Under the pieces are notes generated by a model, which was not told the DNA's origin, ran no database searches, and saw only the letters and a program-made list of their open reading frames with translations. This document shows, one piece after another, positions 6,036-39,068 of a stretch of 64,000 nt of DNA (positions are counted from its first letter, which is position 1; each line of letters begins with the position of its first letter). This stretch comes from Zopfochytrium polystomum (Eukaryota > Chytridiomycota > Chytridiomycetes > Chytridiales > Chytridiaceae), in assembly GCA_025765615.1 (NCBI GenBank), contig JAIVFJ010000029.1:186001-250000 (forward strand), read 5' to 3'. A program made the translations under genes and the position numbers.

Positions 6036-6398
6036 TGTCAGGAACAGGGCAGGACAGGACAAGGCAGACAAGGAACTGAGAGGAGTGATGATTGTATTGG
6101 AAACAATAATTCACTTGAGGGATGGGACAGGTCCCCCATCCCCCTTTTATACCTTTTGAGAGTCTTCCTTGTCAAGACTCAAAGAAAGTTCCAGAAAGAG
6201 CAATTAGTAATACAATGATACCAATGATACCAATGACAACAAGACAAGTCAGGAAAGCAAAGAAGGTTCCAGAAGGTTCCACAAGGTTCCATGAAGGAAT
6301 GTTCTAGAAGGTTCCAGAAGGTTCCAGAAGGTTCCACAAGGTTCCATGAAGGAATGTTCTAGAAGGTTCCAGAGGTTTCCAGAGGGTGATTCATAACA
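6036..6398 (-). repeat. 3' LTR of gypsy copy 1 (363 bases)
   Basis: Begins TGTCAGG and ends TTCATAACA on the plus strand. It differs from the 5' LTR of copy 2 (33751-34113) by one base that I can see, while it differs in length and indels from its own partner LTR at 10998-11353. Confidence 0.9.
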
Positions 6399-9300
6399 TC
6401 ATCTCCCCCTTTTAGGCCTCTTCTGCAACTTGGTGGGGTACCTGGTCTTGAACTTGAGCAGAAGGTCTTGGCAGTGAGTGAGGTTTGACTCAGGTTCCCA
6501 GGTGTTGTCAGCATCTGAGTAACCTTTCCACTTAACAAGGAACTTGAGTGTCCTTCCAAACCACTTGGCATCCAAGATTTGTTCAACCTCAAATTCCTCT
6601 TCACCTTCTACCTCAACTGGAGGAGGAGGAGGAACAACTCTGCCTGGAATGGAATTGGCCACAAACTTCTCCAAAAGGCTGACATGGAAAACTGGGTGAA
6701 TCTTCATGGATGCAGGGAGATCCAGCTTGAAGGTGACTGGATTGATTTGCTCCAAGATCTTGAAAGGTCCCAACTTGAGGTTGTCTAGCTTGGGACTTGG
6801 TCTTTTGGTCTGCAAGTTCTTCCTCAGAAGCCAAACTTGCTGACCCACAGCAAGGTCATGGTCCATTCTGTGAGTGTTGGCGAATCTTGAGGCATCTTCT
6901 TGGGCTTGCTTCAGGGTGGAGTCCAGGAAGGTGCTGATGATCTTGAGCTTATGCAAGTGTGAAGCCACAGCAGGAGCTTGGACATTGGATAGGGTCTCTT
7001 GTCCCAAAAGATCTCCTCTTGGATTGAAGCCATAGGTTGCAAAGAAAGGAGATAGCTGGGTGCTTGAGTGGAGAGAATTGTTGAGAGCAAATTCCGCCAG
7101 CGGAAGGAGGGTGGGCCAATCATCCTGTTGATAGCTGACATAGCACCTCAAATACTGCTCCAGAGTCTGGTTTGTTCTTTCTGTTTGTCCATCAGTCTGA
7201 GGGTGATAAGCAGTTGACAGTTGAGACTTGATTCCAAGGGCTGTTGTGAGTGCTTTCCAAAATTGAGATCTGAACTGAGGTCCTCTGTCACTGATGATTG
7301 ACTGAGGCAGCCCATGGAGCCTGAATATGTGCTGCAAAAACAGGTCTGCTGTTCCTTGTGCATCTATATTCTCAGTGCAGGGGATAAAATGGGCCAACTT
7401 TGTCCTTCTGCAGATGACAACAAGGATAGAGTCAAATCCATGGGATGGGGGCAGTTTCACAATGAAGTCCATGGATATTGATGACCAAGGGCTGATGGCA
7501 ATTGGGAGGGGCTCCAGAAGTCCATAGGGCTTGTGTCTGCTGGATTTGTTTCTTTGACAGGTTTCACAGCTGCTGACATAGTTCTTGATGTACTTCCTCA
7601 TGCCTGGCCAGTAGAAGTCTCTGGAAACAAGCTCATATGTCTTGTGCTCTCCTGGGTGTCCAGCTGTTGCTGCATCATGCCTTGTCTTGAGTATCTCAAG
7701 TTTTTCCTCCTCTTGGCTGACTTGAATCTTGTGAGGCTTGGGGTCCTTGGAAATAGCATGGGCCCACACACTGTCAGGAAGCAATGAAAGGTGTGTCTTG
7801 GATGGTGGGGTGAAACCATCTCCCCCTTCAGGTGCAAGGTCTGTTCTTCTTGACAGGGCATCAGCCACAGTGTTCAGGTGGCCAGGGGAATAGCACAGCT
7901 TAAAGTCATACTCAGAGAGCAGTTCAGCCCACCTGGCATGCCTCTGCTTGAGCAACCTCCTTGCCCTGAAGAAGGTGAGGTTCTTGTGATCAGAATAGAC
8001 AGAGATGCCTTTAGAACCAGCCAAGTAGTGTCTCCAGAATTTGAATGCTTCCACAATTGCAAGCAACTCCTTGTCATGGACTGTGTAGTTACACTCAGCA
8101 CTGTTCAGCTTCCTGGAGTAATATGCCACTGGATGCAGAGGAGCAGAGGGGTCCTGAGAGCTTGGCTGGGACAGAACAGCGCCAAGGGCATAGTCTGAGG
8201 CATCAGTTTCCAAGGTGAAGGGAAGCAAGGGATCCACATGCTTAAGGAGTGGTGCACTTGTGGTTGCTGTCTTAAGAGCTAGCCAGGCTTGCTCTGCTGC
8301 TGGGGTCCATTCAAACTTGGTGGTCTTCTTGGTGAGATCAGTGAGAGGCTTGGCTATGGCAGAATAGTTGGCAATGAAGGTTCTGTAGAAGTTGCAAAAT
8401 CCAAGGAAGCTTTGTACATCCTTGATGGAATTTGGAGCCTTCCATTCAAGAATAGTTTGGATCTTGTCTGGTGCCATGGAGATCCCTTTGTCAGACACAA
8501 TGAACCCCAAAAACTCAATGGAGGTCTTGTGGAATTCACACTTCTCCAGCTTTGCATAGAGGTGATGCTGTCTGAGTCTCTCCAAGACAGTCTTGACATG
8601 TCCCATATGGCTTGCAGTGTCAGATGAAAATACCAGGATATCATCCAGGTAGACAATGACAAAAAGGTCCAGAATATCCCTGAAGATGTCATTCATCATG
8701 CCTTGGAAAATAGCTGGTGCATTGGTAAGTCCAAAGGGCATAACCAAGTACTCAAAGTGACCGTATTTGCATCGGAAGGCAGTCTTCCATTGATCCTGGG
8801 GCTTAATTCTGACCAAATTGTAGGCACCTCTGAGGTCAATCTTGGAAAATATCCTTGCATGGCTCAGTTTGTCCAGTAATTCAGAGATGAGAGGCAGTGG
8901 ATAGCGGTTCTTGACTGTCATCTCATTGAGATCTCTGTAGTCCACACAGGGTCTCAGTCCCCCATCCTTCTTCTTGACAAAAAAGATGGGAGCTCCAGCT
9001 GGTGACTTGGAAGGTTGGATGAATCCCTTGTTCAGCATTTCTTCAATGTATTCTTGGAGGGCCTTGGCTTCTGGTGGAGAGAGGTGGTACAGTGGCTTGA
9101 AAGGTGGGCTGCAAGTTTCATCCTTGAGTGGGATTTCACAGTCATAAGGCCTCTGAGCTGGTAGCAGGTCTGCCTTGGTCTTGGAAAACACATCAGCATA
9201 AGGGAGATATTCTTTTGGTAGCTTGGATGCCAGCAAAAGGTCTGATGGGTCCAAGTTCCTGTGCTCTTCAGCAGTGGTGCATGAATTCTTGACTGGGAAC

Positions 9301-10118
9301 TGTGATTCTTGAATCTTTGACTGAGAGTTCTGTTCTTGGCAAAGACTGTGAGCTGTGGAACTTGAATCTTGAATGTGGACTGTGAACTGTGGTACTTGAA
9401 TCCTTGACTGTGGGTTCTGTGAACTAGAGTCTTGGCCATGACTGTGAGCTCTATGAGCTCTACTTGAATCTTGACTGTGAACTGTGAACTGTGGAACTTG
9501 AGTCTTGGCTGGCTGTGAATCTTGAATCAAGGGCTTGAGAGCATGAGACTTGGGGGCTTGACTTGAGTTTTGGGTGACTGTTCCAATTGGTGGAGGTTGG
9601 ACTTGACCAGTGACCCAATCAATGTCAGGGTTCTGGGCTTGCAGCCATGGTAATCCCAGGATGACAGAGAATGTGGGTGAGCCAAGATCCAATACTTCCA
9701 GGTTGACCATGGATGGTGGAAAGTCTTGGATGTGGAGGTTTAGCTTGGTTTCATGGCTGATTTCCTTGAACAGAGCATGATTGGCAAAGTGGACCTTGAG
9801 GGGTGTGGATTTCTTGATGGTGGGAATGGCACAAGCCTTGGCAAGGGTGGCATCAATGATGTTGCAGGATGATCCAGAGTCGATAAGGGCCTTGGTTGTG
9901 ATGGTTGACTTGGGTGAGAGTTGAATCTTGACATCCATGGTGAGTTGGTGGGGCTTGGAATCTGAGGTGTTTGTGGTGCTGGTGGTGGTGATGAAACAGG
10001 GGCAGCTTGGAGGAGGGTCCAGGGAATTGCCCCTCAGTGAGCCTGGACCTGGGAGTTTGGGTGCTTCTTCCTTGGGCAGTCCTTGACAGCATGCTCCTTG
10101 GAGCCACAGTAAAAACAC
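6399..10118 (-). CDS. pol: Pol polyprotein (protease, RT, RNase H, integrase, chromodomain), gypsy copy 1
   Basis: About 1,239 residues in one open frame. Domains in order: aspartic protease (ALIDSGSSCNIID), reverse transcriptase with YLDD, RNase H (TLETDASDYALG, SDHKNLT, VADALSRR), integrase with HHCC zinc finger (HP...CETCQRNK) and D,D,E residues (SMDFIVKL, SDRGPQF, HPQTDGQTERTNQ), GPF module (KLGPFKIL), and a chromodomain (FLVKWKGYSDADNTWEPE). Chromodomains in this family direct insertion to modified chromatin. There is no ATG at the start of the frame; it overlaps gag by 85 bases in the -1 frame and is probably expressed by frameshifting at 10055-10061. The stop codon directly abuts the LTR. 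Differences from copy 2 are confined to the last third. Confidence 0.9.
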   Translation of the reverse strand: MFLLWLQGACCQGLPKEEAPKLPGPGSLRGNSLDPPPSCPCFITTTSTTNTSDSKPHQLTMDVKIQLSPKSTITTKALIDSGSSCNIIDATLAKACAIPTIKKSTPLKVHFANHALFKEISHETKLNLHIQDFPPSMVNLEVLDLGSPTFSVILGLPWLQAQNPDIDWVTGQVQPPPIGTVTQNSSQAPKSHALKPLIQDSQPAKTQVPQFTVHSQDSSRAHRAHSHGQDSSSQNPQSRIQVPQFTVHIQDSSSTAHSLCQEQNSQSKIQESQFPVKNSCTTAEEHRNLDPSDLLLASKLPKEYLPYADVFSKTKADLLPAQRPYDCEIPLKDETCSPPFKPLYHLSPPEAKALQEYIEEMLNKGFIQPSKSPAGAPIFFVKKKDGGLRPCVDYRDLNEMTVKNRYPLPLISELLDKLSHARIFSKIDLRGAYNLVRIKPQDQWKTAFRCKYGHFEYLVMPFGLTNAPAIFQGMMNDIFRDILDLFVIVYLDDILVFSSDTASHMGHVKTVLERLRQHHLYAKLEKCEFHKTSIEFLGFIVSDKGISMAPDKIQTILEWKAPNSIKDVQSFLGFCNFYRTFIANYSAIAKPLTDLTKKTTKFEWTPAAEQAWLALKTATTSAPLLKHVDPLLPFTLETDASDYALGAVLSQPSSQDPSAPLHPVAYYSRKLNSAECNYTVHDKELLAIVEAFKFWRHYLAGSKGISVYSDHKNLTFFRARRLLKQRHARWAELLSEYDFKLCYSPGHLNTVADALSRRTDLAPEGGDGFTPPSKTHLSLLPDSVWAHAISKDPKPHKIQVSQEEEKLEILKTRHDAATAGHPGEHKTYELVSRDFYWPGMRKYIKNYVSSCETCQRNKSSRHKPYGLLEPLPIAISPWSSISMDFIVKLPPSHGFDSILVVICRRTKLAHFIPCTENIDAQGTADLFLQHIFRLHGLPQSIISDRGPQFRSQFWKALTTALGIKSQLSTAYHPQTDGQTERTNQTLEQYLRCYVSYQQDDWPTLLPLAEFALNNSLHSSTQLSPFFATYGFNPRGDLLGQETLSNVQAPAVASHLHKLKIISTFLDSTLKQAQEDASRFANTHRMDHDLAVGQQVWLLRKNLQTKRPSPKLDNLKLGPFKILEQINPVTFKLDLPASMKIHPVFHVSLLEKFVANSIPGRVVPPPPPVEVEGEEEFEVEQILDAKWFGRTLKFLVKWKGYSDADNTWEPESNLTHCQDLLLKFKTRYPTKLQKRPKRGR

Positions 10119-10957
10119 AGTCCCTGCTGGGCCCTCCTTGTTTTCTCCTCTTGGCTCAGAGGACCCTTAGGAAGTGTCTCAACTGCATCCACTTGCATGG
10201 GTTCAGGAACTGTAAGAGCTTGAGGAACTGGGGTAGGTCTTGATGTAGTTCCTACTTGTCTTTGCTTCAGCCTCTTGGAGTAGAGTCTGTTGTCAATCTT
10301 GATGGCAAGGAGAATGTACTCTTCCAAGGTCTCAGGGATGTGCAGAGACTGGGAGAGCATGTCTTGGATAGACTCATGGAGACCATCATGGTACAGCTCC
10401 ATCAGAGCTGCATCATTGTATCCAGAGTCTCTGGCTAGTTGCTTGAATTGGTTTGTGTAGGCCACACAAGATTGCTTTCCTTGCTTGATATGCTTGAGCT
10501 TGGATCTTGCTGTCCAAGATGCGTAGGGGTCACCAAAGGTAGCTTCCAGCCCCTCCCAGAGCTCTTGCAGGGTGGTGGGTGTGCTTGGGAGAGATCTGTA
10601 CCATGATTGAGCTTGACCAGACAGGAGGGTGCTTGTGAAAAGAACCTTGACTTGCTCACTGGGAAATCTTGAAGGTTGGAGAAGGATGACATTCTCCACA
10701 GTGGCCATAAAGTTCCTAAGGTCTTTGGCCAGCCCAGTGAACTTGTCAGGGCTGGGAACCTTGGGCTCTCTTGCTTGGTTGGCTTGGGGCAGGGGAAGAG
10801 CTTGATGTTCTTGTTGGTGAAGTTGTTGTTGAAGCTGGTGCTGCTGGTGAAGGACTTGTTCTTGAAGTTGGTGCGTCTGTCTTGAGAGGGCTTGTAATTG
10901 GTCCATCAAGGCTTGGAAGGCAGTTGCATCAGGGAAGGTGTTGTTTGGGTCAGACAT
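10034..10957 (-). CDS. gag: Gag polyprotein, gypsy copy 1
   Basis: 307 residues from ATG at 10957. A glutamine-rich N-terminus is followed by a retrotransposon gag domain (LLSGQAQSWYRSL, then W-x-A-R-S-K-L) and a single C-terminal zinc knuckle CFYCGSKEHAVKDC (CX2CX4HX4C). It forms the particle and binds element RNA. It is identical in translation to gag of copy 2. The last codons overlap pol. Confidence 0.9.
   Translation of the reverse strand: MSDPNNTFPDATAFQALMDQLQALSRQTHQLQEQVLHQQHQLQQQLHQQEHQALPLPQANQAREPKVPSPDKFTGLAKDLRNFMATVENVILLQPSRFPSEQVKVLFTSTLLSGQAQSWYRSLPSTPTTLQELWEGLEATFGDPYASWTARSKLKHIKQGKQSCVAYTNQFKQLARDSGYNDAALMELYHDGLHESIQDMLSQSLHIPETLEEYILLAIKIDNRLYSKRLKQRQVGTTSRPTPVPQALTVPEPMQVDAVETLPKGPLSQEEKTRRAQQGLCFYCGSKEHAVKDCPRKKHPNSQVQAH
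10055..10061 (-). promoter_or_regulatory. Putative -1 frameshift heptamer CCCAAAC (gag/pol), copy 1
   Basis: On the minus strand the gag codons read CCA AAC preceded by C, the canonical X XXY YYZ arrangement. The -1 frame after it is the pol frame (PKLPGPGSL). The same site occurs in copy 2 at 35050-35056. Confidence 0.55.
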
Positions 10958-10997
10958 GATGGCAGAGAGTAGTAGGAGAGGGTGAAGTGAATTATGA

Positions 10998-11353
10998 TGT
11001 CAGGAACAGGGCAGGACAGGACAAGGCAGACAAGGAACTGAGAGGAGTGATGATTGTATTGGAAACAATAATTCACTTGAGGGATGGGACAGGTCCCCCA
11101 TCCCCCTTTTATACCTTTTGAGAGTGTTCCTTGTCAAGACTCCAAGAAAGTTCCAGAAAGAGCAATTAGTAATGCAATGATACCAATGATACCAATGACA
11201 ACAACAAGACAAGTCAGGAAAGCAAAGAAGGTTCCAGAAGGTTCCACAAGGTTCCATGAAGGAATGTTCTAGAAGGTTCCAGAAGGTTCCAGAAGGTTCC
11301 ATGAAGGAATGTTCTGGAAGGTTCCAGAGGTTTCCAGAGGGTGATTCATAACA
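10998..11353 (-). repeat. 5' LTR of gypsy copy 1 (356 bases)
   Basis: Shares its diagnostic indels (an additional AAC triplet and absence of a short block in the pentamer array) with the 3' LTR of copy 2 at 38713-39068, not with its own partner. Confidence 0.9.
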
Positions 11354-14225
11354 TCGAGGGTGTCACGGAAAGGAGTAGCAAAGGAGTAGGTGGCCAATTG
11401 TAAGTGGAGCTGGTGTGCTCGGAGGAGGCGGAGTTGACGACGGAGTTGACCAAGGACGGCTGTCGTGCCGATGTGCGCCGTTGCAGGTAGAATAGTGTCG
11501 GAAGTCAGGGGAATTTGAATAGGGATGGTAGTTTCTGGGACGGAAGAGGCGAGGCGATCAGCAGCCTCGTTACCGGCATCACCGGAATGACCACGGATCC
11601 ACTGAACCGAGGGAAGTGGACCTTGTCGTAGGGAGAGGGTGTGTGCAACCATGGCCCAGAGTTTGCCAAGAGGAGAACGGAGGAGAGTAGAGCGGCTGAC
11701 TAGGAGGGGGGGGAAGGGGAGGAGGCGGATTGGGAGAGTTGGTAGCAGATAAAAAAGTGGCAGGGACGTTCAGGGGGGGTGCAAAAAGTTGATTGAAGGT
11801 GGTAACAACGGCGTTGTTGTCGAGGTGAATGATAAGGGGGTGTGGGAGATGTTGGGTGGAGATCAAAGCAGAGAGGAGACCTACAAGCTCAGCAGTGGTG
11901 GAGGGGGAGGACATTGCGGGAAGAGCAACAGGGAAGGAAAGGGGTGGGTCACGAGAAACTATTGCAGCAGACATGAAACCAGAGGTGCGGAGAGAACCAT
12001 CAGTGTAGATTGAGAGGGAGGGGATGTCCGCGGGCGCGTTAAAGGGGGCTATGGGGTGGAGTGAGGCAGGGGGAGGAATTTCTACCGGGTAGAGAGGGTG
12101 GTAAAAGGGGTTGGAAAGGCGGCGACGAGGAGGTATACCAAGAAATGCGCGGGAGCGAAGCGTGGGGAGATTGCGAAAGTGGGGTTCTAGCTCATGGTAT
12201 AGTGTCCGCCGTTGAGTGTTAGAACGCCGTCTGCCACGGAAGGAAAGGGGTCGTAAGGATGCAGAGAGGAGTTTTTCGAAGAAAAAAATGCCTTGACGTT
12301 GGAGAAGGGGGAGAAGGGGGAGGCGGAGGGACCACGGGATGGAGGAAATGGGATGGGCTTGAACGCGGAAAAGTGGCAAGTGGGAAGATGTTATGGAGAA
12401 TTGATTGGCAAAGAGAAGGGGTACAAGAGCGTTAGAAAAGCTGGTTTGGGAGAAGGGGAGAGGTACAGGGTCGGTGAAAAGGGGAGTGGCTTGACAGTGT
12501 AAAAGTTGGAGACGTTGAAACAAAATATGAGTTATAGGACCAATAAGGGCAGTGTCGGTTAGGCGTTGGTGAAGATCAGAGAACATGTCAGAGCAATATT
12601 CAGCGTAAAGATCGGGAATGTGATAGAGGAGGTGGTGATGGACGATAGTGGAGGGAAAGGAAGCACTGAGGCCCACAATCTTTTTGAAGGCCCGTCGGAT
12701 GTGGGATGTTTCATTTAAAAGGAAGGTACGGGGGAGGTGCGCAGTCTTCCACAGGAACCGCAGACGGGGAAGGAGGACATTGCGGAAAACGTATGCAGCG
12801 AGTTTGTCCCCTACGACCTTGCGCTGGAGGGTAGTGATTATGTCGGAGATGGTGGTTGAGATTTGTCGGCGAGCGGCACTAGAGCGTCCATCTGCTGTGA
12901 AAAAGTTGCCAAGATGCCTGAAGGGGGAAGAAGGTGGTTGGATGGGAATGGGGGTGTCGCCCCATAAGATCTGCTGCGGAGTGTTATCGTTGGTGTTGGC
13001 GGCTGTGACAAAGATTTTGCGAGTATTTGATTCGATGTTGTTGTGCGACTGATATTCAAAAAGGATATCAGCTTGGCGCTGCAAATCTGCATAGGAAGTG
13101 GCGATGGTGTTGGTGTCGTCGACCAAGGCAAAGCCAGTTACGGACACGGGGGGTGCTGCAGAAAGAAGGGCGGGGTGGATGGAACGGGGGAGTTCGACAG
13201 AAAAGGTGATGCCGAGTGTGTGCTGGTCCAGAGCGCATAGGACAGGGTCCCAAAAAATGCGCCAATCGAGAGGGCCTTCAAGCGAGCCTTGTTGTATCAT
13301 GGTACCTATGGGAAAGGTGGGAGACGGGCCAAAAGCGGTTAGTACATATGATCGGAAGCGAGTTTGCGTATTTGCGCGCATGCGAATATATGACTCTGGG
13401 AGGCGGATGCGACGCCATGCACTAATCAGGCCAGCGACAGGAGCGCTGTCGAAGGCCTTCTTAATATCGTTCAGCAGGAGGAAAAGGGGGGAGGAGGTTG
13501 CATGAGAGAAATCTAAAGCGGAACGGACCAGGTGGAGAGGTGTGTCAGGTGAGGAACCAGGGAGGGCAGAGAAGTTGCGACCTTTCAGGATGGAGGGGGA
13601 AGAGGAGAGAATGTGGGAAATGCGGCGGAGGCGAACACCCTGGACGACCTTGGCAGCCAACTCGCAGAGGCTGATGGGGCGGAGATTTGTAAGATCGCCG
13701 CCCCACACGTCTTTTTTGGAATGGGAAAGATAGCAGTGAGCGACCAGGAGGAGGGAATGTCGAGGAGCAAGAATGATCGTTGGATCAAGGACGAAAAGAA
13801 GGCGACTGCGTCCGGACCAGCGAGGAGGAGCAGCTCGCGGGAGAGTTGGGACGGCCCAGCCGCTTTGTTTTTAGCAAGAGAGTTAAGGACGGAGCGGCAT
13901 TCATCAAGGGAGGGTGGAAGCATGATATTGGCAAAGGTGTCGAGGGCAACGTAAGGGCGAGGAGTCATTTCGGCATGAAAGGGCGAGGTTGGGGGAAAAG
14001 GTTGAAGAGTGCGGGGACGAAACCAATGCTCCACTTGTTGCGCGCAGAGCTGAGGGATGTCATCGGGGTTGTGTTCGATGTAAGGTCCATCTGGGCTGTC
14101 TGTGAGGATGTGGTCAATGTTGGAGTTGGTGCGTTTCCGGTTGAGGATATTATTGAGGACGGTGCGAATTTGAATAAAGCACTGACTAACGACCGCCTGC
14201 AAGGGCATTCTATTTGGACCGTTTT
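11354..14225 (-). mobile_element. LINE (non-LTR retrotransposon), 5' part: reverse transcriptase and most of RNase H
   Basis: Two minus-strand frames, 14208-13585 and 13708-11579, continue each other after a one-base shift near 13706: IFPIPKKT is followed by GGDLTNLRPISL, the typical start of a LINE reverse transcriptase. The catalytic motif reads FALVDDTNTIA. An RNase H domain follows (IYTDGSL, TAELVGLLSAL, HLDNNAVV). After another shift, WIRGHSGDAGNEAADRLA completes it. No endonuclease domain is seen upstream, so the element is 5'-truncated. The frame is broken at 11354 by the gypsy LTR at DTLD and continues at 39069. Confidence 0.8.
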
Positions 14226-14265
14226 GCCCGTTCGCTTTTCTCGCGTAAAATGATCACCGCCCTTA

Positions 14266-14705
14266 TCAAACCGCCGCCGCCCGCGCCGAAAGCTGGCGCA
14301 CGTCGGACCAGCCTTTGATCGTCCCGTTGCTGAACACTTGGATCCCTTGCGCTGTCGACGAACCGGGGGCGACGAACGTCACGTTGTGGCCGAGCTGCGC
14401 GAGGTACGCAGCCGTGCTGTTGTCGAAGCCGACCCAGCCGGGAATGGCGGGGTAGGACGCCGCCCATTCCAGCATAGTGAGCGGGGGGGAGAGCTGGTCG
14501 TGCCAGCGTGGGGCGGCCTTTGAAAAAACCGGACGAAAGGACGAGTTAAAACCCAACAAACATCAATTTTTTCGGCGTTGCCGCCTTGCAGGAGGATGTC
14601 GGCGTCGACGTTGGAGCAGACGTCGACTTCTGTTGCGACGGCGCCGCGGGTGCCGGCTGCGCATTGTTGGATGGGCAAGAAGGAAAATTTTCTTTGTTTC
14701 GTGTG
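14266..14705 (-). pseudogene. Gamma-glutamyltransferase remnant (N- and C-terminal ends only)
   Basis: The minus strand shows an N-terminal GGT motif, RGAVATEVDVCSNVDADILL then QGGNA, at about 14680-14580. A C-terminal GGT end follows directly in another frame: APRWHDQLSP, YLAQLGHNVTF, TAQGIQVFSNGTIKGWSDVR. The family is normally about 550-600 residues and cleaves the gamma-glutamyl bond of glutathione. Here the roughly 400 residues between, including the catalytic Thr region, are missing. The gene is a deletion relic next to the LINE 5' end. Confidence 0.6.
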
Positions 14706-18650: not shown

Positions 18651-18685
<35 letters not shown>

Positions 18686-28362: not shown

Positions 28363-29534
28363 GGCCACGTAGCCAACAGGGCCCTAGGTACGCTCAGATT
28401 CCGGCCCAGTGCGAGATGTGCTTCGTAGCTGGCCGGCTAGTCGCTTCAGTTCTGTTAACTAGCCTGTGATTCTGTGAAACAGCAAAAAAAACCCGCAAAG
28501 AGCGTTATGGACGGGTACCAGCCGGAGGGCTGACGCGGAGGCCTCCGATTTGCAACTTATCAGATAAGTGTTTATACTTATAAATGGAATAAATTGCGCT
28601 TCCCAGCGATGAGTGCTCTGCGAAACTGAAAGAGCGACCATTCTCAAAACTCAATCTCGTATAGGCTCCTCTCGACACCAAGGCCAGCCGTGAAAAGATG
28701 ACCCAAATTATGTTTGAAACTTTCAAAGTCCCTGCGTCCTACGTTCCCATCCAAGCCGTGCTTTCGTTGTTCGCTTCCGGTCGAACAACTGGTATCGTCA
28801 TGGACTCCGGCGATGGCGTTTCAAATGCTGTCCCAATTTACGAGGGATACGCGGTCCGTAATGAAATTATTTGGAGTGTTTCCCCCGCCGTTCTCACCAA
28901 ACTCGCATCGAAAGCAGTTCTCGTACGCGATCCAACGCATCAACCTCGCCGGCCACGACCTTACCAAGTACCTTCAGCGCATCCTATTGGGCCGCGGCCT
29001 CTCGCTCAACGGCAGCTCCGGGTTCGAAGTCGCCCGCGACATGAAAGAAAGGCGGTGCTACGTCGCACTCGACTAATAGAAAGAAATGACCATCGCCAAC
29101 ATTTCCAGCTCCCTCGAACAAGGATATGAGCTCCCTGACGGCGAAGTAATAACCATTAGCAGCGAGCGCTTCAAGGCGCCCGAAGCGCTCTTCCAACCAT
29201 CACTGGTCGGCCTGGAATCCCCCGGCATCGCCGAGACGACTTACACTCGATCCTCAAGTGCGACATGGACATCCGAACAGAGCTCTACCGCAACGTGGTC
29301 CTGTCTGGCGGGACAACTACGTACCCTGGGCTCGCTGACCGCATGCACAGGGAGCTCATCGAGCTGGAACGGTCGACGATGCCAGTAAAGGTGGTTGCCC
29401 TACCTGAGCGCAAATCTAGTGTCTGGATCGGCGGGTCGATTTTGGGGTCGCTGTCGACATTCCAGCAAATGTGGGTGTCAAACCAGGAGTACCATGAGAG
29501 TGGCCCGCGTATTGTGCACTTCAAATGCCAGTGA
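28363..29534 (+). pseudogene. Actin pseudogene, N-terminally truncated chimera
   Basis: Bases 28363-28665 resemble 29950-30240. After CTCGTATAG the sequence jumps into actin at about codon 107 (AGGCTCCTCTCGACACC, corresponding to the [17 protein letters not shown] region). It continues as [21 protein letters not shown], then an intron-like break, [13 protein letters not shown], an in-frame stop after CYVALD, and further frames with [14 protein letters not shown] and [17 protein letters not shown] to 29534. The first third of actin is missing and at least one stop and one frameshift are present. It is a tandem relative of the intact gene at 30805-32072. Confidence 0.85.
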
Positions 29535-30804
29535 ATCAAGTTAATCTCAGGAGGAAAAGGAGTTTTCCCGCACACCACATATGTTTTTTTCGCTTGCCCA
29601 GTCAAGGACGTTGTTCAAAAAAATATGAATACCCCAATTTGGTTTCGCAAACAGCCGATCTTCAGAACAAACTTAATTGAAGGCTCGCCTTTGGATAAAC
29701 GCGAAGAATAAAGCGGGGCTGCCCTGCAATCGACGCCATTAATTAGCATAAAGTGGGGGTGTCAAAATAAAAAATGTGGTGAGGTTGCTAGTTGACGAGA
29801 CATCAAGAAGGTACTTGGATAAATAGTAATCAATCAGTAAGGGTTCAAAACTTTAACAGTTCGGCTTCCCGATCCGCCGCTCCCGTCAAGAGCACCGTGC
29901 CCTGCGAGCGAAGCTGTTAATTAGCATTAAACGTGTCTACTCCCAGCCTTTGCCAGGGCCACTAAGCCAACAAGGCCCTGCATGCACTCAAATTCCGTCA
30001 AAACGCCGGACGAGCTTCGCAGCTGGTCGGCTAGTTTCTAGTTCGCTCAGCTTGTGAGATTGTGAAAGAGCAAAATGAACCACAAAAGCACAATGTGACG
30101 GGTTCCTGCGGGAACGTTGGGGATGACGACGAGGGGCCGCGATTTTGCATCTTATTTGATTAGTGCTTGAAAATGGTAAATGTGAGTGTGCTGTGAAACT
30201 GAAATCATCAAAACTCATTCTCGTATAGTTTCAGTGCTACCGGTGGCGACTGCGGCTCGGGTACTCCAGCCAATACGAAACTCAAGTATGAACTCTGCCA
30301 GTTCAAGCAATTTGTCTTGATGCTGGTTTTGATTTTGAGAGGTCTTTCGGGCGAGTGATCATTCCATAGGATTTATGCCCGGTGCATTAAAGGTTCGATT
30401 TTACTGGGGGTTGGTTCACCTTCAAGCGTTCGGACAGTCCTGCGATTGAAAGGTCCGAACAGGAGGCACCATGGATGAAAGGCATCAATCCTCGACGGCG
30501 AATTCGAGGAGGGGTGGATTTTTTCGCGCTTCCTTCAAAGTGCTTGGATAAGGAGTACAGCCCACACGTGCATGGATTTGACTGCAGAGATCGGTTGCGG
30601 GCGCGTTTGACAAACAGAGGCAGAGAGCAGAAAACACAGGAAAGAAAAAACAATCAAATTCACCTTCCGTCCACCCCCAGGAGCGAAGCCTGAAGCATAC
30701 ACGGTCGATTCGAAGGACGCTCGCCAGTGATATATATTAACGAACTCGTTCGACCTCTACCCATCTCATTTCGCACAAACACTTCGGAAAAACACTCAGG
30801 GAAA
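29535..30804. other. Intergenic; upstream copy of the actin-flanking repeat and TATA region
   Basis: 29950-30240 is the second copy of the segment also found at 28363-28665 (both begin AGCCAACA.GGCCCT and run to CTCGTATAG). The rest has no coding signal. A TATATATTA at about 30730-30738 lies some 70 bases before the actin ATG. Confidence 0.55.
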
Positions 30805-32072
30805 ATGGTTCAGACGCTCGACGACGTTGCCGCCATCGTTATCGACAATGGATCTGGCATGTGCAAGGCCGGCTTCGGCGGTGACGATGCTCCTCGAGCG
30901 GTTTTCCCAGCAATCGTCGGCCGCCCTCGTTACCAAGGTGCGATGGTCGGTATGGCGGAAAAGGACTCTTTCGTTGGCGACGAGGCTCAAGCGAAGCGGG
31001 GCATTCTCTCGCTGCGGTATCCGATTGAGCACGGCATCGTTACAAACTGGGACGACATGGAGAAAATATGGTGGACACCCCGCATCTCTTTCTTTCTTCT
31101 TTTCCGTCATTAATTTTGCACCTGTTGCAAAAGGCATCACACCTTCTACAACGAGCTTCGCACTCCACCTGACGAGCACCCAGTTCTACTTACGGAGGCT
31201 CCTCTCAACCCCAAAGCCAACCGTGAAAAGATGACCCAAATTATGTTTGAAACTTTCAACGTCCCTGCCTTCTACGTCTCCATCCAAGCCGTGCTTTCGT
31301 TGTACGCTTCTGGTCGAACGACCGGTATCGTTATGGACTCCGGCGATGGCGTTTCACACGTTGTCCCCATTTATGAGGGATACTCGGTCCGTCATGATTC
31401 TTCTTTTCAATCATTTTTCACTCGCCGTTCTCACCAAACTCTCACCCAAAACAGTTGCCTCACGCAATCCAACGCATCAACCTCGCCGGCCGCGACCTTA
31501 CCGAGTACCTTCAGCGCATCCTAATGGACCGCGGCTACTCACTCATTGGCAGCTCCGGGCTCGAGATCGTCCGCGACATCAAAGAGAAGCTCTGTTACGT
31601 TGCCCTCGATTATGACCAAGAAATGACCATCGCCAACACCTCCTCCTCCGTCGAAAAAGCATACGAGCTCCCCGACGGCCAAATCATGACCATCGGCAGC
31701 GAGCGCTTCAAGGCGCCCGAAGCGCTCTTCCAACCATCACTGGTCGGCCTGGAGTCTCCTGGCGTCGCCGAGACGACTTACAACTCGATCCTCAACTGTG
31801 ACATGGACGTCCGCAAGGAACTTTACGGCAACGTGGTCTTGTCCGGCGGAACGACCATGTACCCCGGGCTCGCCGACCGCATGCACAGGGAGCTCACCCA
31901 GCTGGCGCCGTCGTCGATGAAAGTCAGGGTGGTGGCGCCGCCTGAGCGCAAATTTAGTGTCTGGATCGGCGGGTCGATTTTGGCGTCGTTGTCGACGTTC
32001 CAGCAAATGTGGGTGTCAAAGCAGGAGTACGATGAGAGCGGCCCGGGTATTGTGCATCGCAAATGCCAGTGA
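30805..32072 (+). CDS. Actin, divergent but intact
   Basis: Exons 30805-31070, 31134-31386 and 31455-32072 give 378 residues, the normal actin length plus a slightly longer N-terminus ([20 protein letters not shown]). Nucleotide-binding and structural motifs are present: [76 protein letters not shown] and the C-terminal HRKCQ, where Phe is usual. Actin polymerises into microfilaments in the cytoplasm. Substitutions at positions that are nearly invariant in fungal actins (for example [13 protein letters not shown] and [14 protein letters not shown]) suggest a specialised paralogue rather than the main actin. A TATA box lies about 70 bases upstream. Confidence 0.9.
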
Positions 32073-32473
32073 ATCAAGTTAAGCATTGGCGTCAAACGGT
32101 TTTCCTCCACACCACGTTTTAAATTTTTTTTCACTCAAACGCACCAATATTGTTGAATAAATACGAAGATCCCTCACGGCCCTGAAACCAAATGATTCTC
32201 GTTCAAATTTCTTTATTTAAGACTTGTCTTTGGATTCACACGAAGAACAGAGCGGGGGGTTTGACAACTGACATTTGTTCAGCAAATGCAGTCATTAAGA
32301 GGCAATTTGTGAGGTGAATTTCGAACAAAATGTGTTGGCTTGCTGCGTGAAGAGACATTACAGTGAATTTCATATTACTTGAGATTTTGGGGCTGAAAAA
32401 AAAAATGTTTCGGGGGGACAAAACTTTTTTTTTGCTGCCTCAAATCTCAAGGACCAGCCGGGGTAAATCCTAA
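32073..32473. other. Intergenic, AT-rich
   Basis: 3' flank of the actin gene up to the Harbinger end. No gene or repeat recognised. Confidence 0.5.
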
Positions 32474-32651
32474 ATTTGCCCCGGAATGGCAGCCACCAGT
32501 GTGGTAAATGCCGTGGCAAATTTGCACGGAGGCCAAACTGGGGCAAATCCGTCCCAATTTGCCCCAGTTTATTCGCTGGGGTATTCCTTTTCTAAACAGA
32601 CAAGTCAGTGTTGCTCGTTGCGTTGCACTGCCCCTTGACGAATCCGCCGTC

Positions 32652-33620
32652 ATGGGACGAGGGGTTTCGTTCTCTTCGGCTGAGGATGTCGCCATTGTCA
32701 AGGCCTGGCTTGCTGTTGCGCAAGACCCAATTGTTGGCACGGACCAGACCCTAGCAGCTTTCTGGGAGCGGATCTTCTTGATTGCTTCGGAGAAGCAGAA
32801 GAGCCTCAAGACGAGGACATCACGGGGAGAATCGCTCCGCGGTCGGTATGGGGCGATCCAAAAAGCTGTTGGAAAGTTTGTCGGTGTTCACAAGGCTGTT
32901 TTTGATCTCAACGAAAGTGGGAAGACTGATCTAGATCGGTTTACCGACGCCTGTCAACTGTACAAGGAGGAAGAGGGTGTTGCCTTTCAGTTCAAAGAGT
33001 GTTGGGACGTTTTGAAGGAGTCCCCTAAGTGGATGGAGGGGGAACAAACTCTCAACGCCAAGCCCGCTGGATCTGGCAGCAGTAGATCGTCAAAGGGGAA
33101 GAGCAAGGATCTGGGGCCAACAAGAGACAGAAGCTCGCCAGCAGTTGAGGATTATCCCGGCACCAACAAGCGTGCAGATGAATCTGGCGAATCCTCCAAC
33201 CTCCATTCAGATAACAATTCAGAGACTAAAGAAAGGCTAAAGATCGGCTGATTGGTAAGTTTTTTTGATCAATGCGACGCTAAGCAAGATCTGCAGGTAC
33301 AAAACTTGCGAAACGACAGCGCATCGATCACAGCAGAGAAACAAAAGTCGGCAAAACTAGAGGTCATGACAGGAATGGCAGATGAGCTCAGGAAAAGTCG
33401 GGAGGATACCAAAACGTTCTATGACAGTATTGTTGATATCGAAACAAAGCGGGTCCAGTTGGAGGGGGATCGTGTGAAGACAGAGAGCGAGAAGCACGAG
33501 CTAGAAATACTTCAGTTGGACACAAGCAAGTTGGACCCTGTTGCAGCGACGATCGTGAAGGCGAAACAGCAGCAATTGTTGGCAAAATACGTTGTGGGCT
33601 CGGGGAACTCTGTGCAGTGA
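32652..33620 (+). pseudogene. Harbinger accessory Myb/SANT-like DNA-binding protein (ORF1), frameshifted
   Basis: ATG at 32652. The reading gives FSSAEDVAIVKAWLAVAQDP, WERIFLIA, SLRGRYGAIQKAVGKFVG, LNESGKTDLDRFTDACQLY and FQFKECWDVLKESPKW, the trihelix/SANT pattern of Harbinger ORF1. A stop ends the frame at 33251. A GTAAGT...CTGCAG segment at about 33256-33297 could be an intron, but the conserved LIGTKLAKRQR that should span it is split over frames. A second frame (to 33620) holds the coiled-coil tail (EVMTGMADELRKS, ending VVGSGNSVQ). Such proteins help the transposase bind the terminal repeats. The copy appears decayed. Confidence 0.7.
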
Positions 33621-33653
33621 CTTTTCCCACTGCTTAAACTAAAAAACAATAGA

Positions 33654-33750
33654 TCACTCGTCCATCTCCCTCCCGTGTTGGTTCCACAGGTGTTGAATGA
33701 GATTGTTGCGTAGTATGTGGTGGGCCTGTCGATCTGCCAATTCCCTGCGT
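33654..33750 (-). pseudogene. C-terminal fragment of the Harbinger transposase
   Basis: Reading inward from the gypsy junction on the minus strand, the frame gives RRELADRQAHHILRNN then LIQHLWNQHG and a stop (33654-33656). This is the usual HHQLxxDLIEHLW ending of Harbinger transposases. It continues the frame that breaks at 6035, using one ACGCA. Confidence 0.8.
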
Positions 33751-33778
33751 TGTTATGAATCACCCTCTGGAAACCTCT

Positions 33779-33888
33779 GGAACCTTCTAGAACATTCCTT
33801 CATGGAACCTTGTGGAACCTTCTGGAACTTTCTGGAACCTTCTAGAACATTCCTTCATGGAACCTTGTGGAACCTTCTGGAACCTTCT
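33779..33888 (+). promoter_or_regulatory. Heat-shock-element-like arrays in the LTR
   Basis: Contiguous alternating nGAAn/nTTCn pentamers: four units at 33779-33798, eight units at 33814-33853 and four at 33869-33888. Three contiguous inverted units already fit the consensus site of heat-shock factor. They lie 110-220 bases upstream of the TATA box. The 356-base LTR type keeps an uninterrupted eight-unit array. Binding is inferred from the pattern only. Confidence 0.6.
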
Positions 33889-33997
33889 TTGCTTTCCTGA
33901 CTTGTCTTGTTGTCATTGGTATCATTGGTATCATTGTATTACTAATTGCTCTTTCTGGAACTTTCTTTGAGTCTTGACAAGGAAGACTCTCAAAAGG

Positions 33998-34005
33998 TAT
34001 AAAAG
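33998..34005 (+). promoter_or_regulatory. LTR TATA box
   Basis: TATAAAAG, followed about 35 bases later by the 11-base self-primer candidate, which is about where transcription would start. Confidence 0.65.
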
Positions 34006-34032
34006 GGGGATGGGGGACCTGTCCCATCCCTC

Positions 34033-34126
34033 AAGTGAATTATTGTTTCCAATACAATCATCACTCCTCTCAGTTCCTTGTCTGCCTTGTCCTGTCCTGC
34101 CCTGTTCCTGACATCATAATTCACTT
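34033..34126 (+). promoter_or_regulatory. Tf1-like self-primer and primer-binding site
   Basis: AAGTGAATTAT at 34033-34043 is exactly complementary to ATAATTCACTT at 34116-34126, which begins two bases after the LTR end at 34113. No TGG, expected for a tRNA primer, follows the LTR. The Tf1/sushi group primes reverse transcription by folding the first 11 bases of its mRNA onto such a site. Confidence 0.7.
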
Positions 34127-34153
34127 CACCCTCTCCTACTACTCTCTGCCATC

Positions 34154-35077
34154 ATGTCTGACCCAAACAACACCTTCCCTGATGCAACTGCCTTCCAAGC
34201 CTTGATGGACCAATTACAAGCCCTCTCAAGACAGACGCACCAACTTCAAGAACAAGTCCTTCACCAGCAGCACCAGCTTCAACAACAACTTCACCAACAA
34301 GAACATCAAGCTCTTCCCCTGCCCCAAGCCAACCAAGCAAGAGAGCCCAAGGTTCCCAGCCCTGACAAGTTCACTGGGCTGGCCAAAGACCTTAGGAACT
34401 TTATGGCCACTGTGGAGAATGTCATCCTTCTCCAACCTTCAAGATTTCCCAGTGAGCAAGTCAAGGTTCTTTTCACAAGCACCCTCCTGTCTGGTCAAGC
34501 TCAATCATGGTACAGATCTCTCCCAAGCACACCCACCACCCTGCAAGAGCTCTGGGAGGGGCTGGAAGCTACCTTTGGTGACCCCTACGCATCTTGGACA
34601 GCAAGATCCAAGCTCAAGCATATCAAGCAAGGAAAGCAATCTTGTGTGGCCTACACAAACCAATTCAAGCAACTAGCCAGAGACTCTGGATACAATGATG
34701 CAGCTCTGATGGAGCTGTACCATGATGGTCTCCATGAGTCTATCCAAGACATGCTCTCCCAGTCTCTGCACATCCCTGAGACCTTGGAAGAGTACATTCT
34801 CCTTGCCATCAAGATTGACAACAGACTCTACTCCAAGAGGCTGAAGCAAAGACAAGTAGGAACTACATCAAGACCTACCCCAGTTCCTCAAGCTCTTACA
34901 GTTCCTGAACCCATGCAAGTGGATGCAGTTGAGACACTTCCTAAGGGTCCTCTGAGCCAAGAGGAGAAAACAAGGAGGGCCCAGCAGGGACTGTGTTTTT
35001 ACTGTGGCTCCAAGGAGCATGCTGTCAAGGACTGCCCAAGGAAGAAGCACCCAAACTCCCAGGTCCAGGCTCACTGA
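34154..35077 (+). CDS. gag: Gag polyprotein, gypsy copy 2
   Basis: 307 residues with the same translation as gag of copy 1, including the zinc knuckle CFYCGSKEHAVKDC. The ATG follows the primer site by 28 bases. The last codons contain the slippery heptamer at 35050-35056, and the stop is at 35075-35077. Confidence 0.9.
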   Translation: MSDPNNTFPDATAFQALMDQLQALSRQTHQLQEQVLHQQHQLQQQLHQQEHQALPLPQANQAREPKVPSPDKFTGLAKDLRNFMATVENVILLQPSRFPSEQVKVLFTSTLLSGQAQSWYRSLPSTPTTLQELWEGLEATFGDPYASWTARSKLKHIKQGKQSCVAYTNQFKQLARDSGYNDAALMELYHDGLHESIQDMLSQSLHIPETLEEYILLAIKIDNRLYSKRLKQRQVGTTSRPTPVPQALTVPEPMQVDAVETLPKGPLSQEEKTRRAQQGLCFYCGSKEHAVKDCPRKKHPNSQVQAH

Positions 35078-38000
35078 GGGGCAATTCCCTGGACCCTCCT
35101 CCAAGCTGCCCCTGTTTCATCACCACCACCAGCACCACAAACACCTCAGATTCCAAGCCCCACCAACTCACCATGGATGTCAAGATTCAACTCTCACCCA
35201 AGTCAACCATCACAACCAAGGCCCTTATCGACTCTGGATCATCCTGCAACATCATTGATGCCACCCTTGCCAAGGCTTGTGCCATTCCCACCATCAAGAA
35301 ATCCACACCCCTCAAGGTCCACTTTGCCAATCATGCTCTGTTCAAGGAAATCAGCCATGAAACCAAGCTAAACCTCCACATCCAAGACTTTCCACCATCC
35401 ATGGTCAACCTGGAAGTATTGGATCTTGGCTCACCCACATTCTCTGTCATCCTGGGATTACCATGGCTGCAAGCCCAGAACCCTGACATTGATTGGGTCA
35501 CTGGTCAAGTCCAACCTCCACCAATTGGAACAGTCACCCAAAACTCAAGTCAAGCCCCCAAGTCTCATGCTCTCAAGCCCTTGATTCAAGATTCACAGCC
35601 AGCCAAGACTCAAGTTCCACAGTTCACAGTTCACAGTCAAGATTCAAGTAGAGCTCATAGAGCTCACAGTCATGGCCAAGACTCTAGTTCACAGAACCCA
35701 CAGTCAAGGATTCAAGTACCACAGTTCACAGTCCACATTCAAGATTCAAGTTCCACAGCTCACAGTCTTTGCCAAGAACAGAACTCTCAGTCAAAGATTC
35801 AAGAATCACAGTTCCCAGTCAAGAATTCATGCACCACTGCTGAAGAGCACAGGAACTTGGACCCATCAGACCTTTTGCTGGCATCCAAGCTACCAAAAGA
35901 ATATCTCCCTTATGCTGATGTGTTTTCCAAGACCAAGGCAGACCTGCTACCAGCTCAGAGGCCTTATGACTGTGAAATCCCACTCAAGGATGAAACTTGC
36001 AGCCCACCTTTCAAGCCACTGTACCACCTCTCTCCACCAGAAGCCAAGGCCCTCCAAGAATACATTGAAGAAATGCTGAACAAGGGATTCATCCAACCTT
36101 CCAAGTCACCAGCTGGAGCTCCCATCTTTTTTGTCAAGAAGAAGGATGGGGGACTGAGACCCTGTGTGGACTACAGAGATCTCAATGAGATGACAGTCAA
36201 GAACCGCTATCCACTGCCTCTCATCTCTGAATTACTGGACAAACTGAGCCATGCAAGGATATTTTCCAAGATTGACCTCAGAGGTGCCTACAATTTGGTC
36301 AGAATTAAGCCCCAGGATCAATGGAAGACTGCCTTCCGATGCAAATACGGTCACTTTGAGTACTTGGTTATGCCCTTTGGACTTACCAATGCACCAGCTA
36401 TTTTCCAAGGCATGATGAATGACATCTTCAGGGATATTCTGGACCTTTTTGTCATTGTCTACCTGGATGATATCCTGGTATTTTCATCTGACACTGCAAG
36501 CCATATGGGACATGTCAAGACTGTCTTGGAGAGACTCAGACAGCATCACCTCTATGCAAAGCTGGAGAAGTGTGAATTCCACAAGACCTCCATTGAGTTT
36601 TTGGGGTTCATTGTGTCTGACAAAGGGATCTCCATGGCACCAGACAAGATCCAAACTATTCTTGAATGGAAGGCTCCAAATTCCATCAAGGATGTACAAA
36701 GCTTCCTTGGATTTTGCAACTTCTACAGAACCTTCATTGCCAACTATTCTGCCATAGCCAAGCCTCTCACTGATCTCACCAAGAAGACCACCAAGTTTGA
36801 ATGGACCCCAGCAGCAGAGCAAGCCTGGCTAGCTCTTAAGACAGCAACCACAAGTGCACCACTCCTTAAGCATGTGGATCCCTTGCTTCCCTTCACCTTG
36901 GAAACTGATGCCTCAGACTATGCCCTTGGCGCTGTTCTGTCCCAGCCAAGCTCTCAGGACCCCTCTGCTCCTCTGCATCCAGTGGCATATTACTCCAGGA
37001 AGCTGAACAGTGCTGAGTGTAACTACACAGTCCATGACAAGGAGTTGCTTGCAATTGTGGAAGCATTCAAATTCTGGAGACACTACTTGGCTGGTTCTAA
37101 AGGCATCTCTGTCTATTCTGATCACAAGAACCTCACCTTCTTCAGGGCAAGGAGGTTGCTCAAGCAGAGGCATGCCAGGTGGGCTGAACTGCTCTCTGAG
37201 TATGACTTTAAGCTGTGCTATTCCCCTGGCCACCTGAACACTGTGGCTGATGCCCTGTCAAGAAGAACAGACCTTGCACCTGAAGGGGGAGATGGTTTCA
37301 CCCCACCATCCAAGACACACCTTTCATTGCTTCCTGACAGTGTGTGGGCCCATGCTATTTCCAAGGACCCCAAGCCTCACAAGATTCAAGTCAGCCAAGA
37401 GGAGGAAAAACTTGAGATACTCAAGACAAGGCATGATGCAGCAACAGCTGGACACCCAGGAGAGCACAAGACATATGAGCTTGTTTCCAGAGACTTCTAC
37501 TGGCCAGGCATGAGGAAGTACATCAAGAACTATGTCAGCAGCTGTGAAACCTGTCAAAGAAACAAATCCAGCAGACACAAGCCCTATGGACTTCTGGAGC
37601 CCCTCCCAATTGCCATCAGCCCTTGGTCATCAATATCCATGGACTTCATTGTGAAACTGCCCCCATCCCATGGATTTGACTCTATCCTTGTTGTCATCTG
37701 CAGAAGGACAAAGTTGGCCCATTTTATCCCCTGCACTGAGAATATAGATGCACAAGGAACAGCAGACCTGTTTTTGCAGCACATATTCAGGCTCCATGGG
37801 CTGCCTCAGTCAATCATCAGTGACAGAGGACCACAGTTCAGATCCCAATTTTGGAAAGCACTCACAGCAGCCCTTGGAATCAAGTCTCAACTGTCAACTG
37901 CTTATCACCCTCAGACTGATGGACAAACAGAAAGAACAAACCAGACTCTGGAGCAGTATTTGAGGTGCTATGTCAGCTATCAACAGAATGATTGGCCCAC

Positions 38001-38712
38001 CCTCCTTCCACTGGCAGAATTTGCTCTCAACAATTCTCTCCACTCAAGCACCCAGCTATCTCCTTTCTTTGCAACCTATGGCTTCAATCCAAGAGGAGAT
38101 CTTCTGGGACAAGAGACCCTATCCAATGTCCAAGCTCCTGCTGCGGCTTCACACTTACATAAGCTCAAGATCATCAACTCCTTCCTGGACTCCACTCTGA
38201 AGCAAGCCCAAGAAGATGCCTCAAGATTTGCCAACACTCACAGAATGGACCATGACTTTGCTGTGGGTCAGCAAGTTTGGCTTCTGAGGAAGAACTTGCA
38301 GACCAAAAGACCAAGTCCCAAGCTAGACAACCTCAAGTTGGGTCCTTTCAAGATCTTGGAGCAAATCAATCCAGTCACCTTCAAGCTGGATCTCCCTGCA
38401 TCCATGAAGATCCACCCAGTTTTCCATGTCAGCCTTTTAGAGAAGTTTGTGGCCAATTCCATTCCAGGCAGAGTTGTTCCTCCTCCTCCTCCAGTTGAGG
38501 TAGAAGGTGAAGAGGAATTTGAGGTTGAACAAATCTTGGATGCCAAGTGGTTTGGAAGGACACTCAAGTTCCTTGTTAAGTGGAAAGGTTACTCAGATGC
38601 CGACAACACCTGGGAGCCTGAGTCAAACCTCACTCACTGCCAAGACCTTCTGCTCGAGTTCAAGACCAGGTACCCCACCAAGTTGCAGAAGAGGCCTAAA
38701 AGGGGGAGATGA
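34993..38712 (+). CDS. pol: Pol polyprotein (protease, RT, RNase H, integrase, chromodomain), gypsy copy 2
   Basis: About 1,239 codons, same domain order as copy 1: DSGSSCNIID protease, VYLDDILVFS reverse transcriptase, RNase H, zinc-finger integrase with D,D,E, KLGPFKIL and chromodomain. It has no ATG of its own and is in the -1 frame to gag. At the protein level I see only a handful of substitutions relative to copy 1, all after residue about 940 (for example TAALG for TTALG, and NDWP for DDWP). The terminal KRGR-stop codons also form the purine tract, and the stop codon touches the 3' LTR. Confidence 0.9.
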   Translation: MFLLWLQGACCQGLPKEEAPKLPGPGSLRGNSLDPPPSCPCFITTTSTTNTSDSKPHQLTMDVKIQLSPKSTITTKALIDSGSSCNIIDATLAKACAIPTIKKSTPLKVHFANHALFKEISHETKLNLHIQDFPPSMVNLEVLDLGSPTFSVILGLPWLQAQNPDIDWVTGQVQPPPIGTVTQNSSQAPKSHALKPLIQDSQPAKTQVPQFTVHSQDSSRAHRAHSHGQDSSSQNPQSRIQVPQFTVHIQDSSSTAHSLCQEQNSQSKIQESQFPVKNSCTTAEEHRNLDPSDLLLASKLPKEYLPYADVFSKTKADLLPAQRPYDCEIPLKDETCSPPFKPLYHLSPPEAKALQEYIEEMLNKGFIQPSKSPAGAPIFFVKKKDGGLRPCVDYRDLNEMTVKNRYPLPLISELLDKLSHARIFSKIDLRGAYNLVRIKPQDQWKTAFRCKYGHFEYLVMPFGLTNAPAIFQGMMNDIFRDILDLFVIVYLDDILVFSSDTASHMGHVKTVLERLRQHHLYAKLEKCEFHKTSIEFLGFIVSDKGISMAPDKIQTILEWKAPNSIKDVQSFLGFCNFYRTFIANYSAIAKPLTDLTKKTTKFEWTPAAEQAWLALKTATTSAPLLKHVDPLLPFTLETDASDYALGAVLSQPSSQDPSAPLHPVAYYSRKLNSAECNYTVHDKELLAIVEAFKFWRHYLAGSKGISVYSDHKNLTFFRARRLLKQRHARWAELLSEYDFKLCYSPGHLNTVADALSRRTDLAPEGGDGFTPPSKTHLSLLPDSVWAHAISKDPKPHKIQVSQEEEKLEILKTRHDAATAGHPGEHKTYELVSRDFYWPGMRKYIKNYVSSCETCQRNKSSRHKPYGLLEPLPIAISPWSSISMDFIVKLPPSHGFDSILVVICRRTKLAHFIPCTENIDAQGTADLFLQHIFRLHGLPQSIISDRGPQFRSQFWKALTAALGIKSQLSTAYHPQTDGQTERTNQTLEQYLRCYVSYQQNDWPTLLPLAEFALNNSLHSSTQLSPFFATYGFNPRGDLLGQETLSNVQAPAAASHLHKLKIINSFLDSTLKQAQEDASRFANTHRMDHDFAVGQQVWLLRKNLQTKRPSPKLDNLKLGPFKILEQINPVTFKLDLPASMKIHPVFHVSLLEKFVANSIPGRVVPPPPPVEVEGEEEFEVEQILDAKWFGRTLKFLVKWKGYSDADNTWEPESNLTHCQDLLLEFKTRYPTKLQKRPKRGR
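35050..35056 (+). promoter_or_regulatory. Putative -1 frameshift heptamer CCCAAAC (gag/pol), copy 2
   Basis: Gag codons CCA (35051-35053) and AAC (35054-35056) preceded by C fit X XXY YYZ. The -1 frame after the slip is pol. No downstream stem was evaluated. Confidence 0.55.
38698..38712 (+). promoter_or_regulatory. Polypurine tract overlapping the end of pol
   Basis: AAAAGGGGGAGATGA ends exactly at the base before the 3' LTR (38713). The last three bases are the pol stop codon. Confidence 0.7.
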
Positions 38713-39068
38713 TGTTATGAATCACCCTCTGGAAACCTCTGGAACCTTCCAGAACATTCCTTCATGGAACCTTCTGGAACCTTCTGGAACCTTCTAGAAC
38801 ATTCCTTCATGGAACCTTGTGGAACCTTCTGGAACCTTCTTTGCTTTCCTGACTTGTCTTGTTGTTGTCATTGGTATCATCGGTATCATTGTATTACTAA
38901 TTGCTCTTTCTGGAACTTTCTTTGAGTCTTGACAAGGAAGACTCTCAAAAGGTATAAAAGGGGGATGGGGGACCTGTCCCATCCCTCAAGTGAATTATTG
39001 TTTCCAATACAATCATCACTCCTCTCAGTTCCTTGTCTGCCTTGTCCTGTCCTGCCCTGTTCCTGACA
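38713..39068 (+). repeat. 3' LTR of gypsy copy 2 (356 bases)
   Basis: Same indel type as the LTR at 10998-11353. About five single-base differences from it are visible. Confidence 0.9.

Follow-up and report, generated by a model that had tools for sequence, protein, structure and literature searches.

The Galileo inversions of Drosophila buzzatii, 2j, 2q7 and 2z3, are the closest described counterpart of the locus reported here (PMC2775673). As 2z3 is described there, opposed copies of one element lie at the breakpoints with their target duplications exchanged, both copies are chimeric, and un-inverted chromosomes carry a single target sequence. Exchanged duplications together with chimeric copies formed the basis for concluding that a Galileo inversion arose by ectopic recombination (PMC2775673). 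Yeast Ty1 offers a second point of comparison, as an LTR retrotransposon whose copies are reported to mediate inversions, deletions and translocations (PMC3102749).

The stretch of DNA that we analyzed, hereafter the window, is 64,000 bp from the chytrid Zopfochytrium polystomum (contig JAIVFJ010000029.1, positions 186,001 to 250,000 of the forward strand). All comparisons were made within the same assembly (80.16 Mb in 761 contigs, which supply the C-numbers used below). We propose that a 22,397-bp segment of the window was probably inverted in the living genome by recombination between two opposed LTR elements, a proposal that rests on the assembled sequence. Opposed homologous copies lie at both breakpoints, their duplications are exchanged, and relatives carry the un-inverted order with a single target. 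Galileo is a transposon of the cut-and-paste type, bounded by terminal inverted repeats, and its inversions are population polymorphisms (PMC2775673). The present locus instead has LTR retrotransposons, one inside a Harbinger and the other inside a LINE, its segment measures 22 kb, and it is seen in one assembly. In the Ty1 work the element had been introduced on a chromosome arm, whereas the event here is read from an assembly (PMC3102749). Because the mechanism is already known from Galileo, the window is a well-documented further example and not a new kind, a clean instance of a known route by which mobile elements rearrange genomes. What sets it apart is that a single ectopic recombination event is documented with unusual completeness, all within one assembly. 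The duplications are exchanged, the LTRs form reciprocal hybrids, a conversion-like tract has sharp edges, both of the disrupted host transposons have unbroken relatives, and paralogues free of the insertions show the other order. In a limited literature search we found no prior report of a retrotransposon-driven inversion in a chytrid, and the window provides a testable case of one.

The two elements belong to the same Ty3/gypsy chromodomain LTR family, measure 5,318 bp each and lie in opposite orientation, copy 1 at 6036..11353 on the minus strand and copy 2 at 33751..39068 on the plus strand. In both, the gag and pol frames are open from stop to stop, with 321 and 1,255 aa in each; those of copy 2 lie at 34112-35077 and 34945-38712, both on the plus strand. 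Copy 2 is a Ty3/gypsy chromovirus by its Pfam domains, which are gag, protease, RT, RNase H, integrase and, at the C-terminus, a chromodomain. The end of the gag ORF overlaps the start of pol, which is read in another frame (34112-38712). The Tf1 layout is a single ORF, and this overlap, unlike that layout, suggests that programmed frameshifting may be used. With the Tf1/sushi chromoviruses, as described in PMC10085805, the window elements share an integrase with a chromodomain. Their layout may be self-priming, as in that group: the primer site at 34116-34126 is complementary over 11 nt to LTR positions 34033-34043, a presumed transcript start that begins 35 nt past the initial T of TATAAAA. 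They also share the occurrence of mosaic copies, ascribed in that paper to recombination between elements (PMC10085805). Two ORFs in different frames set the window elements, classed by Pfam and layout alone, apart from Tf1/sushi.

The 5-bp outer flanks of the two copies are exchanged. Copy 1 has ACGCA on its left (6031..6035) and TCGAG on its right (11354..11358), and copy 2 has TGCGT on its left (33746..33750) and CTCGA on its right (39069..39073), all read on the plus strand. TGCGT is the reverse complement of ACGCA, and TCGAG of CTCGA; in other words, each half of a target duplication has its partner at the other element. These swapped duplications had been noted in a preliminary description of the DNA, and we confirmed them, with the flanks and the positions and lengths of the LTRs, base for base. 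Could the pattern have arisen with no inversion at all, through two independent insertions that left no duplication, into Harbinger and LINE fragments already so ordered? Copies without a matching duplication do exist in the family (a single LTR on C124, below). However, both 5-mers would match in exchanged form by chance with a probability of 4^-10, or ~1e-6, and the order of Harbinger, LINE and flanks fits solely after re-inversion, which leaves this explanation a very small probability. Together with the controls, the unbroken relatives and the swapped 5-mers led us to reject both chance and independent insertion. Aberrant transposition is a process of cut-and-paste transposons and does not apply to LTR elements; we considered it for the window inversion and ruled it out on that general ground. 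It is a rival that was also weighed for the Galileo inversions (PMC2775673).

The LTRs tell of the same exchange. Copy 1 has a 363-bp 3' LTR (6036..6398, minus strand) and a 356-bp 5' LTR (10998..11353, minus strand), and copy 2 has a 363-bp 5' LTR (33751..34113, plus strand) and a 356-bp 3' LTR (38713..39068, plus strand), so that the original partner of each LTR lies in the other copy. The two 363-bp LTRs are one substitution apart, and the two 356-bp LTRs four substitutions apart with no indels. As now paired, the LTRs of copy 1 differ by four substitutions and two indels and those of copy 2 by three substitutions and two indels. The swap of LTR types is thereby borne out, with differences of 1 and 4 in the re-inverted pairs versus 6 and 5 events in the present ones. 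Copy 1 now combines the 3' end of one parent with the 5' end of the other, and copy 2 is its reciprocal hybrid, as judged on LTR alleles. Dating either copy by its LTRs as now paired would be wrong.

For comparison, we scored the best 40 of 962 LTR candidates in the assembly and extracted 30 loci, two of which were the window's own. Eighteen loci formed nine pairs, each of which had an exact 5-bp direct duplication. The ten remaining loci comprised four single LTRs, three with a duplication (C265, C12, C106) and one without (C124), and six loci that had no partner or end in view or lay within an array. The C124 LTR (C124:41699-42061) has the unlike flanks GTTCT and GCAAT, and is possibly the product of another ectopic exchange. 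In eight of nine other pairs of the family, chosen by similarity to the 5' LTR of copy 2, the two LTRs are identical, and in the ninth they differ at one site; the 356-bp pair, with its four sites, is more diverged than any of these nine so chosen. Three of its four differences (187C, 218G, 235C) are alleles found in other LTRs of the family, so the pair is itself somewhat mosaic.

Each element sits within another transposon, and both of these hosts are broken in the present order. A PIF/Harbinger element is split into a left piece at 4999..6035 (plus strand), with the left end and the transposase (Plant_tran, PF04827), and a right piece at 32453..33750 (minus strand), with the transposase C-terminus and a stop at 33656-33654. 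A LINE is split into a 5' piece at 11354..14171 (minus strand), with a reverse transcriptase (PF00078), and a 3' piece at 39069..40387 (plus strand) that ends in a poly-A tail. The LINE's own 16-bp target duplication, AGTCAGTGCTTTATTC, is likewise split by the inversion, with one side at 14172..14187 (minus strand) within the inverted segment and the other at 40388..40403 (plus strand) outside it. Re-inverting 11354..33750 restores all of the features that had been predicted from the letters, namely both target duplications, the LTR pairs, the Harbinger transposase frame and the LINE frame. The joined Harbinger flanks give an open frame down to the stop, and the joined LINE flanks are open through DTLDIVNW. 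With both breakpoints inside LTR elements that are themselves nested in other transposons, no host gene was cut.

The first host is placed in the Harbinger class by its Plant_tran/DDE_Tnp_4-type DDE transposase and by matching terminal repeats: GAGCATCGCCACCAG... and its complement stand at the two ends of the copy on C73, and the complement also ends the Harbinger copies on C98 and C8 on the right. The right terminal repeat was sought in the window and is absent there, with 92 bp of another repeat in its place. These 92 bp (32361-32452), between the broken right end of the Harbinger and the flank, have many matches as paired inverted copies and are MITE-like.

Unbroken relatives of both hosts are present elsewhere in the assembly. 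Those of the Harbinger on C98, C73 and C71 follow the window as far as 6035 and resume at 33750 in descending order; the two matches overlap by 5 bases, the single target, which reads ACGCA on C98 and C73 and ACACA on C71; a relative on C8 has both outer parts, with the junction outside the match. Seven LINE relatives (C312, C50, C1, C535, C621, C310, C34) are continuous across 11354/39069, with a single CTCGA at the restored junction in six and CTCAA on C1. Relatives whose native sequence matched the present junctions would have spoken against an inversion; the opposite was found, as three copies of the Harbinger and seven of the LINE pass through the restored junctions without a break.

The order preceding the host insertions can be seen as well. 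At the left breakpoint, position 4998 joins 32360 (minus strand) directly on C331, C204 and C351, where the Harbinger is lacking (the junctions on C331 and C204 were inspected base by base), and at the right breakpoint 14169 (minus strand) joins 40388 directly on C331 and C414, where the LINE is lacking. The restored adjacency is therefore carried by C331 at both breakpoints, by C204 and C351 at the left and by C414 at the right, and on C204 and C351 pieces of the segment lie with the right flank in the restored orientation. Identity to the window is 84-97% over the longer flanking matches and 80-92% in pieces of the segment, and these contigs have indels of their own, such as ~340 bp extra near 4945-4950. 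For these reasons we treat them as diverged paralogues within one assembly, and not as the same locus of another strain. Because insertion-free paralogues carry the other order, the arrangement in the window is either derived or an assembly flip.

The second of these possibilities deserves attention. It would hold that the genome is un-inverted and that the assembler crossed from one element to the other within an identical stretch. The two copies share a 3,847-bp identical tract (7279..11125 on the minus strand, 33986..37832 on the plus strand), a type of repeat that the shorter of long reads fail to span, and the restored order is the one found on the paralogous contigs. Moreover, this pair, with an identical stretch common to no other scored copy (best 40 of 773 candidates), is the most likely site for a flip. 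We nevertheless consider a flip somewhat unlikely. Differences at both ends of the elements are retained in the assembly, the identical middle would need a separate cause, such as earlier conversion or a collapse of copies, and most other copies of the family that we looked at are resolved correctly. Among 38 other places from the best 40 of 773 candidates, searched at each expected end over no more than 161 bases, both ends were located in 31, and 27 of these had an exact 5-bp duplication (26 directly, and C66b after one further window). The four exceptions lie in or resemble arrays: C61a and C61b form opposite ends of a single array whose outer flanks match, C11 begins inside an array, and C18 is in an evenly spaced run of copies. 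One end was missing in the other seven places, in one case cut by the end of the contig. The copy on C8 was counted in both controls. An internal control is also available, as a third, short copy of the same family inside the segment (16238..17914, minus strand) has an intact direct duplication, CACAT/CACAT. That the assembly resolves most of the other examined copies with correct duplications speaks for reads long enough to span the family, and the window is without gaps. The preliminary description had allowed either an inversion by recombination or an assembly flip; unbroken relatives and insertion-free paralogues favor the first and, for an arrangement known from the assembly alone, make the second less likely.

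The same LTR family also occurs in tandem arrays, with an even spacing of 4,952 on C11 and C64, 4,160 on C18 and 1,725 on C6, and with shared outer flanks on C61. These arrays point to frequent unequal exchange within the family.

The identical tract itself bears on how the exchange may have taken place. The copies differ at 53 alignment columns, every one located on the sense strand either within bases 1-235 or beyond position 4075. To see whether the middle is unique, we compared 2,001 bp out of the 3,847: over this length only the window copies match in full among the best 40 of 773 candidates, and the next best is 40 bits lower, or ~9 mismatches as judged by bit score. At ~9 mismatches per 2,001 bp, the chance of finding zero differences in 3,847 bp is ~3e-8. 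The 3' parts of the two copies, by comparison, differ at 20 of 933 sites. For the 3' part of copy 2 at least six other places within ~1 mismatch are known among the best 40 of 737 candidates, and the nearest places of the two 3' parts, in the best 40 of 737 candidates for each, do not overlap. We hypothesize that an identical middle between unlike ends results from crossover with gene conversion between these two neighbors, and that the tract is the region of both.

The direction of the putative conversion was sought through the 3' parts of C9 and C78, through the middles of C40 and C23, and by a search with the 3' part of copy 1, and none of these yielded an assignable donor. In copies whose 3' part is close to that of copy 1 or copy 2, the middle lies 6-8 per kb from the shared one (C40, C23) or, among the matches listed, ~11 per 2 kb from it (C118, C30). 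The nearest middles among the best 40 of 773 belong to C9, with a mostly copy-2-like 3' part, and to C78, with a mosaic one. The mosaic nature of the family accounts for this outcome, in that near relatives of either 3' part have middles unlike the shared one.

Hypothetically, the inversion required several steps. The Harbinger and the LINE would have inserted first. An element of the 363-bp LTR type would then have entered the Harbinger at ACGCA, and one of the 356-bp LTR type the LINE at CTCGA, in the opposite orientation. A break or a stalled fork in one copy may have been repaired from the other, and a crossover at some point within the tract common to both copies would then have inverted the intervening DNA. 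The shared tract would have been made identical by gene conversion.

A real inversion need not involve a crossover. Swapped duplications and a lengthy copied tract would likewise be expected if a replication fork switched template between the opposed copies, or if one was copied from the other by break-induced replication. Break-induced replication is among the mechanisms that have been proposed for Ty-mediated rearrangements (PMC3102749). A clean reciprocal inversion would demand two switches, however, and the four junctions between elements and flanks show neither duplication nor deletion. We regard such a replicative origin as decidedly improbable, although by sequence alone it is indistinguishable from a crossover. 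Another version of the crossover reading is a standing flip-flop, in which the identical 3.8-kb arms recombine again and again, which would preserve their identity and re-invert the 22-kb segment each time. Both orientations would then coexist in one culture, and the element pair would act as a reversible switch of the orientation of an actin-like cluster. We find this doubtful.

In the single inversion by recombination that we favor, the segment carried with it an actin-like gene at 30817..32069 (plus strand). The cluster to which it belongs (28650-32069) contains one gene that resembles Zopfochytrium actin at 86-94%, depending on the exon, and a neighbor with stop codons, and similar clusters are found on C204, C331 and C351. 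By identity, the best counterpart of a public Z. polystomum actin in the assembly is on C115, at 99% over residues 169-375, 97% over 1-89 and 85% in a piece that crosses an intron. Elsewhere in the segment, an 83-bp piece (17950-18032) matches arrays with a period of ~930 bp on C540 and C235.

More broadly, window positions 4146-51600 are part of a segmental duplication with copies on C331, C204, C351, C414, C551 and C604, which are 84-97% alike over the longer flanking matches and vary in their element content. Past 50 kb, C331 alone of these contigs still matches, to its end at ~51.6 kb (best 35 of 250 candidates). A homologue search with a host gene at 48842-50236 returned two distant matches. 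Further along the window, a tRNA-Ser (AGA) gene lies at 62900-62983 on the minus strand.
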